DNA from: an uncultured Spirochaetales bacterium
GTDB lineage: Bacteria > UBP6 > UBA1177
Direction: 5' to 3'
Length of the DNA: 64,000 nucleotides
Assembly (NCBI GenBank): GCA_902774115.1
Contig: CACYHH010000006.1
Span: forward strand, 124,001 to 188,000
Position numbers and translations under genes: made by a program. Below the pieces are notes generated by a model. It was not told where the DNA came from. It was given only the letters and a program-made list of their open reading frames with translations, and did not search any database. Positions 24,203-46,816 of the stretch are shown here, in pieces; positions within the stretch are counted from its first letter, which is position 1; every line of letters starts with the position of its first letter.

Positions 24203-24286
24203 AAAAATCTTGATTTGGTGTGAAAAACGCTTTTGAAAAATCTTGATTTGGTGCGAAATTGATGCTATAAAAATCTTGATTTGGTG
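24203..24286 (+). repeat. three 18-bp direct repeats at exact 33-bp period, over the promoter of DUF4143 gene 1
   Basis: AAAAATCTTGATTTGGTG occurs identically at 24203-24220, 24236-24253 and 24269-24286. The 15-base spacers are unrelated. The second copy contains a -35-like TTGATT (24243-24248); a -10-like TATAAA (24266-24271) follows after 17 bases and runs into the third copy. Three exact helical-phase copies suggest cooperative protein binding that would control the next gene. Confidence 0.85.
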
Positions 24287-40874: not shown

Positions 40875-41318
40875 TTAAATTTCTTCTTCGTAGCGCATCT
40901 GTTTTATCACAGCCAGTGGTTTACCGGATTTTTTATCTTTTCCGCAATCTTGTTTCCACTTTATTGTTTTCATATTGTCAACAGAGTGAGAATAGCTTTT
41001 ATATATGATCCTAAAAAAAGGTGTGTAGTCCGCTAAATCTGATGCAAGAAGTTTTTTTGAGTTTTCAAGCTGTCTTATAGCTTTTTCTATATGCGAACCT
41101 TTTAATTCTATATAATAAGCATCTTTTTTATCGTCGTTCAGAACAAGCCAGTCACACCTTTCTTCCTGGCCTGTAATAACTTTGCCGTCTATTTGATATT
41201 GTCTGACATCACAAGAATCTGGATTGACACCACGATGTTCACATTTCGTGATATCTCTTGAAACTATGATTTTTGCTTTCGGTTCGCATTCGCTAAGAAA
41301 ACAAGATAATTTAACCAT
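40875..41318 (-). CDS. PD-(D/E)XK nuclease-like small protein
   Basis: A 147-residue protein without a known name. RCDWLVLNDD and AYYIELKGSH place Asp56 and the E-L-K of 71-73 as in the PD-(D/E)XK nuclease fold, with a following helix carrying Gln83 (IRQLENSKK). It overlaps the upstream AAA ATPase gene by eight bases, so the two are coupled. Paired ATPase/nuclease genes of this type resemble antiphage systems such as Septu or PARIS, although neither has this exact second subunit as far as I recall. Nuclease activity is inferred. Confidence 0.6.
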   Translation of the reverse strand: MVKLSCFLSECEPKAKIIVSRDITKCEHRGVNPDSCDVRQYQIDGKVITGQEERCDWLVLNDDKKDAYYIELKGSHIEKAIRQLENSKKLLASDLADYTPFFRIIYKSYSHSVDNMKTIKWKQDCGKDKKSGKPLAVIKQMRYEEEI

Positions 41319-42618
41319 TCCGTTTTTCCTCGTTTTCCCAAATAAGTTCCATTAAATTATCATGTTCTTCATTTATAGCTGTTGATGCTCCGTCAATAAG
41401 CTCGGAAAGAATCAATCCGTATTCAGAATCCATGGCCTGTTCGCATCTGCCTTCGTCAAGATAGAAAGCCGATGAAGTTTTTGGATCAAGAATACAGTTG
41501 CTTTTTATTATTTTTTCCCTGCGCTTGTCTTCAGCAGGAATTTTCGAGGCATACAGCAAATTGTTGAACTCTCCGAGAATATAGGGACTATGGGTCGTAA
41601 TCAGAGCTTTGTTGCCTGAATTTACAAATAAACCCAAAGCTTTGGCTGTCGTCTGCTGAGCATCAGGATAAAGATGAGCTTCCAGTTCTTCCAGAATAAA
41701 CAAAATTTTTCGTCTGTTTAACAGATAATAGAACATCAGGTTGAATATCCATACAGTTTCCTGTTGTCCTGAGGAAGCGTAGTTGATTTTGACATATTTA
41801 TCGTCTGCTATCTGCAATCTTTCTTCGCCCGATATATAGTGGTAATGTCCTTTCAAAACATTTTTGCAAAACTCCAGCATTTGCTTTGTTGCCACTCGGT
41901 CAATTTTATCCTGAGAATAATGGAGTTTGTCGTTAAGCAAGCCTTCAAGTCCGTTATTCAGGACTGGTCTGATTTTGAGAATACGTTCTACATAGGAGCG
42001 TGTGCAGTAGTCGACAGCGACATTGGCGATTTCATCAACACCGGTAAAAATATAGTTGAGCTGATCTGTGAGCAAAGTGATCATTCCTCTGCCCGCCGGA
42101 ACATATACGCATTCGTAAGGAGAACCGAATAAAGCATCAAGTTCTGCTTTAAATTCAGCCACATTTAAATCCTGCCAATTTTCTGATGAGTTTGACCTGA
42201 TATATCCCAAGATTTCCGGGCAAAACTCTATATTGACAAAATTTTTTGACGAGTCGGAGTCATCTTTTTTCAGAGATATACGAACATAAATATTTTCTTT
42301 GTAATCATAAACTATTGACATGTCTGACGGCATTGCCCAGGTTGAGCCGAAAACTTTTAAAAATTTGCTGCGAAGCCGTTTCGCTATCCCAGTCATAGGC
42401 GGAATTGAATGAGAATCCTCGTTTTTCGGCATCATAAACTGGGAAAGAATATCGTTTTTTATCGTTTCGCAAAAATATACTGCTTTGGCAATAGTGCTTT
42501 TTCCGCTTGCCTGTCTGCCGGTAAGCACGGTAAAATCTTTTATATTCAGCTCACAATCGGCAATAGGTCCCAAATTATGAATCGTAATTCTTGGGAAAAG
42601 TGTTTTATCACAACTCAT
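41311..42618 (-). CDS. AAA_15/OLD-like ABC-fold ATPase
   Basis: A 435-residue SMC/RecF-type ATPase. Walker A GRQASGKST lies at 34-42, ASSGQQETVW resembles the ABC signature, Walker B is ILFILEELEAHLYP and the H-loop region is LITTHSPYIL. No TOPRIM domain is evident, so it is not a full OLD nuclease; the small nuclease-like gene downstream may supply catalysis. It sits between a GT11-like gene and wzt in a glycan operon, an odd place for such a pair. A shared 29-nt promoter element lies 70 bases upstream. Confidence 0.78.
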   Translation of the reverse strand: MSCDKTLFPRITIHNLGPIADCELNIKDFTVLTGRQASGKSTIAKAVYFCETIKNDILSQFMMPKNEDSHSIPPMTGIAKRLRSKFLKVFGSTWAMPSDMSIVYDYKENIYVRISLKKDDSDSSKNFVNIEFCPEILGYIRSNSSENWQDLNVAEFKAELDALFGSPYECVYVPAGRGMITLLTDQLNYIFTGVDEIANVAVDYCTRSYVERILKIRPVLNNGLEGLLNDKLHYSQDKIDRVATKQMLEFCKNVLKGHYHYISGEERLQIADDKYVKINYASSGQQETVWIFNLMFYYLLNRRKILFILEELEAHLYPDAQQTTAKALGLFVNSGNKALITTHSPYILGEFNNLLYASKIPAEDKRREKIIKSNCILDPKTSSAFYLDEGRCEQAMDSEYGLILSELIDGASTAINEEHDNLMELIWENEEKRNG

Positions 42619-43715: not shown

Positions 43716-43960
43716 CCCTTCCGCCTGCTTAGCAGGCACCTCCCCTACTTCAGGGGAGCCTCAACTTCGTTTCGACACTAAAATCGAGCCGATAGGCGAG
43801 GTGCCTGACCCTTCCGTCACTGCGTGACACCTCCCCTGCCTCAGGGGAGGCTCAACTTCGTTTCGACATGAGAATCGAGCCGATAGGCGAGGCGTCCCTA
43901 AATTAGGGAAGCTGGCTCTCGAAGAGAGGCTGAAGGGTTGGGGAACTGCCGTAAGGCTAA
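43716..43960. repeat. dispersed repeat element with internal 93-bp tandem duplication
   Basis: Two tandem units begin CCCTTCCG at 43716 and 43809. Each contains a CCCCT...AGGGG inverted repeat, TCAACTTCGTTTCGACA and ATCGAGCCGATAGGCGAGG. Related pieces occur at 46824-46920, 52371-52585 and 53700-53832. No coding potential is evident; it looks like a MITE- or REP-like element. It fills most of the gap between the glycan cluster and DUF4143 gene 2. Confidence 0.6.
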
Positions 43961-43986
43961 GGGGTCGTGGCAGATTTCCACAAACT

Positions 43987-44062
43987 GAAAACTTTCACCA
44001 AAACCCGAAAAAGTTTTCAGTGGCAGTGAAAACTTTTCTTGAAATGTGAAAAAGTTTTCAGT
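43987..44062. repeat. four phased GAAAA-N-TTTTC elements in alternating orientation over the promoter of DUF4143 gene 2
   Basis: Elements start at 43987, 44007, 44028 and 44048, spaced 20, 21 and 20 bases. The second and fourth read GAAAAAGTTTTCAGT exactly; the first and third are inverted, imperfect copies (ACTGAAAACTTT-like). A promoter TTGAAA (44039-44044) and TATGAT (44062-44067) with 17-base spacing contains the last copy in its spacer. Confidence 0.8.
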
Positions 44063-44084
44063 ATGATCGTTTCGGAGGTGGGTC

Positions 44085-45266
44085 ATGATAATACGCGAAC
44101 ATTACATAAATCAGGTTCGTCCGTTTTACGAATCTGATCTTGTCAAAATCATTACAGGGATCAGGCGTTGCGGAAAATCGGTGATACTTTCGCAGATCAT
44201 GGATGAGATCAGAGACAAACACGAAAATGTTATATTTTTGAATTTCGAGGACAAGCTGACAACTTCAACTATCCGGAATTCCATGGATCTGATCAATTAT
44301 GTCAAAGAAAACAGAAAACCGGAAAAACTTTATCTGTTTTTGGACGAGGTTCAGGAGCTTGACGGTTGGCAGGATGCCTGTAAAACGCTTCGTCTTTACG
44401 ACACATCGGTGTTTATAACCGGCTCAAACTCGAAACTTCTTTCAGGCGAATTTACCAAGGAACTCAGCGGCCGTTTCGTCTCTTTCAGGGTCCGCCCTTT
44501 TGTTTATCGGGAACTTGTTGAATATGCCTCCCAACTTGGGAAAGAGGTCTCGATCAGCGACTACATCATTTGGGGCGGCTTTCCCGGACGGCTTGAAATG
44601 CCCGATGAAACTGCTCTCCGCAGATATCTTACCGATCTTGACAACACCATTGTCATAAACGATCTGATCCGCCGCTATCGGATCAAAAAAACATCGCTTT
44701 TCGTTGCTCTCGTAAATTATGTCCTGCGCTCGAATTCGAGGATATTCTCGGTAAAATCTATCCACGACTACATAAGACAAGAACACGATTCATGCTCTGT
44801 CAACACTGTAATGAAATATCTGAGTTACCTTGAAGAAGCCTATATCATTGAAAGCATCCGGCAGTATTCTGCCAAAACGAAACGCGAACTTTCTTTTTAT
44901 ATGAAGATTTATGATGAAGATGTTGCCTTTAATTCGATAAGATGTGATCGCAACCGCTATGATCTGACACACAATTTTGAAAATATCGTCTTCAACGAGC
45001 TGCTTTACCGCGACTGCAAACTGCAGGTCTTCAACAAAAACGGCAGGGAAATAGATTTTTTGTGCGAAAAAGCAGGAAAAAAATATTACATTCAAGTTGC
45101 ATACAGCGTGGCGGACGACAAAGCTTACGAAAGAGAATTCAGCGCATTCAACCAATTGGATCAGATCGACAGAAAGATCATCATTACAAACGATGATGTC
45201 GACTATTCGACAAGCAATGTCCAGCACATAAAAATGAGGGATTTCCTTCTTTCGGAAGATCTGTGA
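44085..45266 (+). CDS. AAA_14/DUF4143 ATPase 2
   Basis: A 393-residue protein. P-loop GIRRCGKS at 25-32, Walker B LYLFLDEVQ, then a winged-helix-like region (about 205-262, including CSVNTVMKYLSYLEEAYII) and a DUF4143 domain. REIDFLC is present but the expected E-x-K strand reads YYIQVAYS, so the nuclease-like site of this copy is degenerate. GGAGG lies six bases before the ATG. Four phased operator-like elements overlap its promoter. It lies between a dispersed repeat and a second DUF4143 gene. Confidence 0.82.
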   Translation: MIIREHYINQVRPFYESDLVKIITGIRRCGKSVILSQIMDEIRDKHENVIFLNFEDKLTTSTIRNSMDLINYVKENRKPEKLYLFLDEVQELDGWQDACKTLRLYDTSVFITGSNSKLLSGEFTKELSGRFVSFRVRPFVYRELVEYASQLGKEVSISDYIIWGGFPGRLEMPDETALRRYLTDLDNTIVINDLIRRYRIKKTSLFVALVNYVLRSNSRIFSVKSIHDYIRQEHDSCSVNTVMKYLSYLEEAYIIESIRQYSAKTKRELSFYMKIYDEDVAFNSIRCDRNRYDLTHNFENIVFNELLYRDCKLQVFNKNGREIDFLCEKAGKKYYIQVAYSVADDKAYEREFSAFNQLDQIDRKIIITNDDVDYSTSNVQHIKMRDFLLSEDL

Positions 45267-45267
45267 C

Positions 45268-45346
45268 CCGGAAAAAGTGGCAAAAATTATCCGAAAATAC
45301 CAGGAAAAAGTGGCATTTTTCTTGAAAATACCTGGAAAAAGTGGCA
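45268..45346 (+). repeat. three GGAAAAAGTGGCA direct repeats over the promoter of DUF4143 gene 3
   Basis: Copies of CCNGGAAAAAGTGGCA have their GG at 45270, 45303 and 45334, spacing 33 and 31 bases. A promoter candidate TTGAAA (45322-45327) with CAGAAT (45345-45350), 17 bases apart, has the third copy in its spacer. Two further copies follow the gene at 46769-46816. Confidence 0.8.
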
Positions 45347-45395: not shown

Positions 45396-46688
45396 ATGAG
45401 AAGAAATGTTGTTGATGATTTGGTAAAATGGAAAAACAGCAAAAGCAGAAAACCGCTAGTCCTTAAAGGTGTGCGACAAGTCGGCAAAACATGGCTGATG
45501 AAACATTTCGGGAAAGAGTTCTATCAAAATTATGTTTATTTCAATTTTGACGAAGATGTTGAGATCAGATCGATTTTTGAGACGAGCAAAGATCCTCAGA
45601 GGATAATCCAAAGGCTTTCGATGATTTCCGGTCAGGCGATAGATCCTGGAAAAACTTTGATCATTTTTGACGAGATACAGGAATCTTCAGCCGCTCTCAA
45701 TTCGCTGAAATATTTTAATGAAAAGGCTAACGAATACCATGTCATTGCGGCAGGAAGCCTGCTTGGAACACTGCTTGCAGCACCGCAATCCTATCCTGTC
45801 GGACAGGTGAATTTTCTTGAGATCCAACCGATGAAATTTGATGAGTTTTTGTCTGCAACAGATGAAAATCTCTACAATTTCTATTGTTCCGTTCAAAAAG
45901 GCGATGCTGTTGAAAATATTTTTCATTCCCGCTTGAGCGAAGCTTACAATATTTATCTGATTGTCGGAGGAATGCCTGAATGTGTCGCTTCATGGGCGGA
46001 AGAAAATGATCCACAGGCACTCGAGCGAATTCAAAAAGAATTGCTAACGCTTTACGAAAACGACTTCGCAAAACATAACAGCAAAATAAACAGCGGAAGA
46101 ATATTGATGGTTTTTCGCAGTCTGGTCTCGCAGCTCGCGAAACAGAACGAAAAATTCATCTACGGCGCGGTTAAGGAAAGCGGCAGAGCCCGCGATTTTG
46201 AAGCAGCTATCGAATGGCTTGTTTCTGCCGGGATCGTCAACAGAGTTTTTAATGTTTCGAAGGCGGAACATCCTCTTCCGGCATTTGACGAACTCAACTG
46301 CTTCAAACTTTTTATGTTTGACACGGGACTTCTTAAAAATATGGCGGGAATAGACAACCTTTCCCTTGTGACAAAATCAGATTTTCAATTCAAAGGAGCT
46401 CTTGCGGAAAATTATGTCCTGCAGCAGCTGCGCGGCGTTTTTGATATAGAACCGCGTTATTTCGCAACAAAAAGCGGAGAGATCGACTTTATCGTGCAGT
46501 CGGGAAGCGAAATCATCCCGATCGAAGTCAAGGCTGGCGAAGACAGAAATTCTGTGTCATTCAAAAATTATGTGAAAAAATATTCTCCGCTCCATGCGGT
46601 CCGTTTTTCCAGGATGGGCTATCTCCAAAACGGCGGCATAACCAACATCCCGCTTTATTTCGCGGGAAAGATCAGAGAATTGATGTGA
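45396..46688 (+). CDS. AAA_14/DUF4143 ATPase 3
   Basis: A 430-residue protein. P-loop GVRQVGKT at 25-32, Walker B TLIIFDEIQ, middle helical region and a C-terminal DUF4143 domain with GEIDFIV and PIEVKAGE, an intact PD-(D/E)XK-like pair. It is more like gene 1 than gene 2. AGGAG precedes the ATG. Three repeats cover its promoter and two more of the same kind lie just after it. Cellular function is unknown for the family. Confidence 0.82.
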   Translation: MRRNVVDDLVKWKNSKSRKPLVLKGVRQVGKTWLMKHFGKEFYQNYVYFNFDEDVEIRSIFETSKDPQRIIQRLSMISGQAIDPGKTLIIFDEIQESSAALNSLKYFNEKANEYHVIAAGSLLGTLLAAPQSYPVGQVNFLEIQPMKFDEFLSATDENLYNFYCSVQKGDAVENIFHSRLSEAYNIYLIVGGMPECVASWAEENDPQALERIQKELLTLYENDFAKHNSKINSGRILMVFRSLVSQLAKQNEKFIYGAVKESGRARDFEAAIEWLVSAGIVNRVFNVSKAEHPLPAFDELNCFKLFMFDTGLLKNMAGIDNLSLVTKSDFQFKGALAENYVLQQLRGVFDIEPRYFATKSGEIDFIVQSGSEIIPIEVKAGEDRNSVSFKNYVKKYSPLHAVRFSRMGYLQNGGITNIPLYFAGKIRELM

Positions 46689-46768
46689 AAATCACACTTT
46701 TTTTGCAAATTATGTGATTCTGATCACGCTTTTTGCAGGAATTTTGTGCAAAAATCACCTAAAAATAC

Positions 46769-46816
46769 CTGGAAAAAGTGGCAAAAATTGTCTGAAAATA
46801 CCCGGAAAAAGTGGTA
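46769..46816 (+). repeat. two more GGAAAAAGTGG(C/T)A repeats, downstream of DUF4143 gene 3
   Basis: GG positions are 46771 and 46804, again 33 bases apart, and the spacer (AAAATTGTCTGAAAATACC) matches the upstream spacer except at two positions. No gene of this family follows, so it may be the leftover promoter region of a lost copy. Confidence 0.78.

Follow-up and report, generated by a model that had tools for sequence, protein, structure and literature searches.

A probable autoregulatory operator array at the promoter of a PDC-S01 ATPase gene from an uncultured Spirochaetales bacterium

RESULTS

Four alternating half-sites overlap the predicted promoter of an ATPase gene

The window analyzed here is a 64,000-nucleotide stretch of contig CACYHH010000006.1 from an uncultured Spirochaetales bacterium. 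On its plus strand, positions 44085 to 45266 encode a 393-residue AAA_14-DUF4143 ATPase (Pfam) that PADLOC assigns to the candidate PDC-S01, and the predicted promoter of this open reading frame (ORF) is overlapped by an operator-like array, of which we propose the ATPase to be the binder. The array comprises four elements between 43984 and 44062; their orientation alternates and their symmetry axes recur every 20.5 bp, giving a 41-bp direct repeat (78% over 36 nt) plus inverted pairs. Repeat search, a four-site fit, and reading of the sequence define half-site 1 (ACTGAAAACTTT, 43984 to 43995, plus strand), half-site 2 (reverse complement ACTGAAAACTTTT, 44009 to 44021, minus strand), half-site 3 (AGTGAAAACTTTT, 44025 to 44037, plus strand), and half-site 4 (reverse complement ACTGAAAACTTTT, 44050 to 44062, minus strand). 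When this asymmetric unit is used, the starts lie alternately 26 and 15 bp apart. Half-site 4 occupies the 17-bp spacer between a −35 hexamer, TTGAAA (44039 to 44044, plus strand), and a −10 hexamer, TATGAT (44062 to 44067, plus strand), and shares one base with the latter; most homologues of the GAAA class described below have TTGACA at the place equivalent to the −35 hexamer and TATAAT as the −10 hexamer. A Shine-Dalgarno-like GGAGGTG follows at 44074 to 44080 on the same strand.

An earlier note on this DNA had described the elements as GAAAA-N-TTTTC units beginning at 43987, 44007, 44028, and 44048. Their starts, alternating orientation, and 41-bp repeat were verified in the sequence, and the placement of the last one within the spacer of a TTGAAA-N17-TATGAT promoter is borne out by reading 44039 to 44067. 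The unit itself had to be redefined: the homologues reveal an asymmetric 13- to 14-nt half-site, (T/A)ACTG-core-TTT(T), and because their half-sites are asymmetric, the palindromic look of GAAAA-N-TTTTC is a coincidence of the local word.

The paired motif GAAAACTTT-N8..22-AAAGTTTTC occurs at two places in the 2.5-Mb genome, both inside the array, and the reversed pattern does not occur. The lone 12-mer GAAAAAGTTTTC, on the other hand, is found at background frequency (89/76 versus 72/87 for the control). Since the single 12-mer is at chance level and the pair is confined to one locus, the exceptional feature is the array and not the lone element. The four-site fit to the array scores 72 of 78, while the best of 154 mononucleotide shuffles of homologous regions scores 51. 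Comparison with a phage collection gave no match to the array, and a search of viral contigs gave no relative of the ATPase protein.

Homologous loci keep the geometry and change the core word

The relatives comprise 69 loci from named genome contigs plus others from the genus; because many of these are metagenome bins, the phylum label of an individual contig may be incorrect. We compared 77 upstream regions of homologues that are 97 to about 57% identical and come from several phyla. In 49 loci the sites recur at a direct offset of 41 bp and in 28 at 40 bp, placing the axes 20.5 or 20.0 bp apart, whereas mononucleotide shuffles, which preserve base composition only, have no preferred offset. 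A period of 40 or 41 bp gave the best four-site fit in 72 of the 77 regions, and 57 of them scored above the maximum of the 154 mononucleotide shuffles. The half-site consensus in the homologues is (T)ACTG, a variable core, and then TTT, with cores falling into the classes GAAA, GGAC/AGAC, GAGA, GCGA, GCAA, GCAT, and TTAA.

A promoter is embedded in these arrays as well: a promoter score of at least 10 was reached in 55 of 74 homologous arrays versus 12 of 222 shuffles. It takes one of two registers that differ by ∼12 bp. The −10 TATAAT of the GAAA class overlaps site 4, starting at its edge; that of the GGAC class, TAAAAT, is inside site 4, with the −35 TGGACA inside site 3. Sites within a locus are more alike than those of different loci in the GAAA class (0 of 2,000 permutations), and the same permutation comparison found no such homogenization in the GGAC class. 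That all copies change at constant spacing, in an array that ends in a promoter, fits DNA sites of one binding protein. The operator-like nature, the promoter overlap, and the two-turn phasing proposed in the earlier note are supported; phasing in relatives, whose absence that note had named as a reason to abandon its reading, was examined and is present.

Paralogues have private arrays of other geometries

The same genome has 13 other AAA_14-DUF4143 genes, most of them with their own upstream repeats (e.g., GGAAAAAGTGGCA, GGAATTTTGTGA, TTGATTTGGTGC, and TGGCGCAANCGTGA), and about a dozen different words occur among the paralogues of this one genome. In an analysis with dinucleotide shuffles and real control genes, a repeat score of at least 6 was found for 28 of 60 family genes versus 1 of 129 other genes of the genome (Fisher, 1e-15); some of the 60 are orthologues from related species, so that not every one counts as independent. 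Roughly half of the genes of the wider family have no clear array at the score used. The direct spacings fall at 33 bp (38 genes), 32 bp (21 genes), and 23 bp (16 genes); any other spacing is rare or a multiple of these. The earlier note had further proposed that elements on one side of the helix would favor cooperative binding of an oligomer such as an AAA ring. Two-turn phasing is kept in most of the 77 homologous loci, as 41 or 40 bp, but the paralogue periods of 32 to 33 or 23 bp mean that an arrangement on a single face of the helix is not a family rule. The array is thus one case of a pattern seen across the family, in which several geometries occur, one of them with two-turn phasing. 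Upstream of relatives carried by plasmids of Segatella, Acinetobacter, Vibrio, and Parabacteroides, repeats of similar layout are found as well.

One paralogue directly adjoins the gene studied here. Three copies of GGAAAAAGTGGCA, read at 45270, 45303, and 45334 (array, 45270 to 45346, plus strand), start 4 bp after the stop codon of the first cassette, so that two cassettes abut, and precede a second AAA_14-DUF4143 (PDC-S01) gene with an intact E-V-K nuclease motif (45396 to 46688, plus strand; Pfam and PADLOC). Downstream of gene 3, at 46695 to 46816, there are two more copies of the gene 3 word without a gene; they lie at 46771 and 46804, 33 bp apart, the second with one change, and are possibly the relic array of a lost cassette. 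Elsewhere in the window, TTGATTTGGTG occurs at 24210, 24243, and 24276 (33 bp apart; 24210 to 24286) before an AAA_14-DUF4143 ORF that starts at about 24312.

The ATPase combines a predicted winged helix with a nuclease-like C terminus

The ATPase matches Pfam AAA_14 (5.8e-29, 101.1 bits; curated cutoff, 27) and DUF4143 (1.1e-11, 45.2 bits; curated cutoff, 28.1), and the PADLOC model of PDC-S01, PDLC04787, covers it at full length (2.6e-113, residues 1 to 391). Walker A and B residues G25, G30-K31-S32, and D87-E88 are kept in 83 of 83 homologues. PDC-S01 (AAA_14-DUF4143, COG1373) is a phage defense candidate from guilt-by-embedding, described as a fusion of an ATPase with a PD-(D/E)XK domain; it was the fourth most common defense (candidate) in the archaeal and bacterial genomes surveyed, and most such PDC candidates were reported to await experimental validation (PMC12988326). 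In rumen genomes, PDC-S01 is the most frequent individual locus (PMC13356809).

An AlphaFold2 model built with 44 aligned sequences (mean pLDDT, 89.2; pTM, 0.87) has helices at residues 203 to 216, 223 to 231, and 239 to 251 and strands at 255 to 261 and 272 to 277, the wing spanning 255 to 277. The ATPase is thus predicted to contain an internal winged helix (residues 203 to 277; codons at 44691 to 44915, plus strand) with 239 to 251 as its recognition helix, in agreement with the suggestion of the earlier note that the middle region, about residues 205 to 262, looks like such a fold. A FUR-family match at residues 208 to 269 was weak and below the cutoff. A PDB sequence search with the ATPase returned nothing significant; by Foldseek, the nearest folds are the Walker-type ATPase 2qen and DNA-bound Orc1/Cdc6.

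The restriction-endonuclease-like region (residues 294 to 368; 44964 to 45188, plus strand) retains E299, E322, D324, and Q337, but the catalytic Lys is replaced by Ala339. Among 83 homologues of the inverted-array subfamily, E299, E322, and D324 are invariant and the motif is Q-x-A (Q337 in 83 of 83, A339 in 82 of 83); the paralogous direct-array subfamily keeps E-x-K (E337 and K339 in 69 of 70 each). The inverted-array subfamily thus lacks the catalytic (E/Q)-x-K of an active PD-(D/E)XK nuclease, and with the lysine uniformly lost (82 of 83), its members are by that criterion unlikely to be catalytic nucleases, as judged from their sequences. A regulator-like or otherwise noncleaving role, or a different catalytic arrangement, is possible for the Q-x-A subfamily.

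A recognition-helix residue varies with the operator core

Among 313 alignment columns, residue 240 ranks first as a predictor of the core word after correction for overall identity. In this protein it is Asn240 (codon at 44802 to 44804, plus strand), the second residue of the recognition helix. The pairings of residue and core base are Asn with A, Thr with C, and His with T, with Pro in the TTAA class. On the tree, residue 240 has changed only four times, as has base 8, which leaves too few pairs for the independent-pairs test, and the distant L248, with base C and Ile240, departs from the Thr/C rule; because of these features, we regard the covariation as no more than suggestive of self-binding. 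When the alignment columns of the divergent direct-repeat subfamily were scanned, no column or region predicted the word. Separately, a distant branch (L257 to L268 and L270) shares the recognition helix (A)PETILNY, and many of its members have the palindrome TATCAGTTATAACTTATA upstream, suggesting another pair of helix and operator.

Array and ORF travel together as a cassette

Compared with a locus from another species of the same genus (L025), the block from 43974 to 45266 (plus strand), which runs from 10 bp before half-site 1 to the stop codon, is 93.9% identical at the nucleotide level over exactly that extent, and no similarity was found in the flanks on either side. Among near-identical pairs in different contexts, 162 similarity blocks are bounded on both sides, typically from ∼100 to 145 bp upstream of the start (the outermost half-site) to 0 to 2 bp past the stop, and pairs up to 99.4% identical show the same bounds. 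No neighboring gene family is present in more than 5 of 64 loci, so there is no conserved linked regulator: neither a partner gene of the toxin-antitoxin type nor a small regulator gene beside the operator was found by this count.

No terminal inverted repeats were seen by eye at the cassette edges, and array words 3′ of the genes, the possible right ends, were absent in 12 of 13 testable loci, gene 3 being the only positive. A joined-flank search for empty sites gave one usable case of six. At this site (L109 [G014:C41] versus L326 to L328), the insert is flanked by a ∼30-bp imperfect duplication, TTTACCCGAA[CG]AAAACTTTGAAAACGTCG, and holds, besides the cassette, 37 extra bp on the left. A published study lists COG1373 with the gut genes that are shared horizontally (PMC10782964). 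Upstream of the cassette in the window, at 43737 to 43892, an intergenic repeat with CCTCCCCT..AGGGGAGG palindromes is present in two copies of 65 nt (91%), and the cassettes in L025 and L097 are flanked by similar sequence.

DISCUSSION

Since the array and gene travel together, and each relative has its own matching version, the array is a probable autoregulatory operator, through which the ATPase quite likely represses its own promoter. In the mechanism that we propose, the protein, a STAND/Orc1-like AAA ATPase whose C terminus resembles restriction endonucleases, would bind the four half-sites via its internal winged helix, either as at least two dimers or as an ATP-dependent oligomer that spans about 80 bp. 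The bound ATPase would occlude the −35/−10 region and hold the gene low. We infer that the ATPase is the binder and that binding represses; the ATP state or an infection signal would then relieve repression. The sites could serve activation instead. The array and ORF would make up a cassette of about 1.3 kb, complete in itself and transferred whole; each copy would thus bring its own switch, and the private words of diverging families would keep the numerous paralogues within a genome insulated from one another.

An unlinked host regulator, Fur-like or of a defense network, might instead bind the array and control the gene, leaving the winged helix with another role. Many host regulators typically use phased inverted arrays, and the winged helix is a model-based prediction, its binding to the array a proposal. 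We nevertheless consider a host regulator unlikely: the array moves with the ORF between unrelated contexts, the word changes between close homologues together with the protein, the paired motif is at a single genome locus, and about a dozen paralogue words in one genome would need as many unlinked regulators.

Alternatively, the array might be mainly a recombination or mobility end, the left terminus of a single-gene mobile element on which the protein acts. The blocks that run from the outermost half-site to just past the stop codon, even in the most similar pairs, the duplication around the L109 insert, and the recurrence of the gene 3 word downstream of gene 3 all agree with such a role. 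However, an array embedded in a promoter, the missing terminal inverted repeats, the scarcity of 3′ arrays, an insert that is the cassette plus 37 bp, and the loss of the nuclease lysine in the subfamily argue against it, and we hold it to be quite improbable. RNA hairpins (an attenuator or antisense) in place of DNA sites would account for inverted repeats whose arms both change between classes, yet they are very improbable: with the predicted −10 beginning where the last element ends, the array lies upstream of the predicted transcript start, and the direct repeats of the paralogues could not fold into hairpins of this kind. Chance in an AT-rich region, which would suit the background frequency of lone 12-mers, is a negligible prospect given the array score (72 versus a shuffle maximum of 51), and the conservation of geometry across tens of loci already refutes it.

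The autoregulatory reading has partial parallels in known systems. RptR represses the promoter of a Type I RM/DarTG2 defense island through a series of promoter repeats (PMC12255303); promoter repeats and, as proposed here, repression through them are shared features, but RptR is encoded by a separate small regulator gene, whereas here no regulator is linked and the ATPase itself carries the predicted winged helix. Orc1/Cdc6 proteins (2qby and 2v1u) likewise have an AAA domain followed by a winged helix, use repeated DNA sites, and resemble the ATPase in fold. They act on origin DNA, while the present sites are in the promoter of the gene that encodes their proposed binder and a C-terminal nuclease-like domain is added; nothing found for the present ATPase points to replication. 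The best fold match is the Pyrococcus abyssi Walker-type ATPase PABY2304 (2qen; E, 1.2e-8; TMq, 0.49; identity, 17%), for which we know of no operator. Autoregulated toxin-antitoxin operons encode their own repressor, which acts on palindromic promoter sites. They resemble the proposed self-encoded repressor, but here there is a single gene with no conserved partner.

Relative to PDC-S01 as described (PMC12988326), the ATPase is the same in its full-length HMM match and in the fusion to a PD-(D/E)XK fold, and it differs in the lysine lost from the inverted-array subfamily. The portions of the open-access literature available to us mention the family in few places and do not describe an operator array, private words, quantized geometry, or cassette boundaries for PDC-S01. 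If an array of its own precedes each PDC-S01 gene, promoters would reveal the DNA specificity of these ATPases by the thousands, with the four-element array as an entry point to a family-wide rule; simple reporter assays could be applied to expression triggers, and nature would supply a large collection of winged-helix/operator pairs for studying switches of DNA specificity. Cassette-like movement would also offer an alternative reason for the position of PDC-S01 inside defense loci. A bolder version, which we think rather unlikely, is that PDC-S01 genes are single-gene mobile cassettes (a private-array promoter plus an ORF) that are moved precisely, that their embedding in defense loci partly reflects mobility, and that the array is where the protein exerts regulation and also its handle for movement. 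Near the cassettes in the window, positions 40875 to 42618 hold an AAA_15/AAA_21 ATPase gene with a 147-residue partner on the minus strand, possibly another defense pair.
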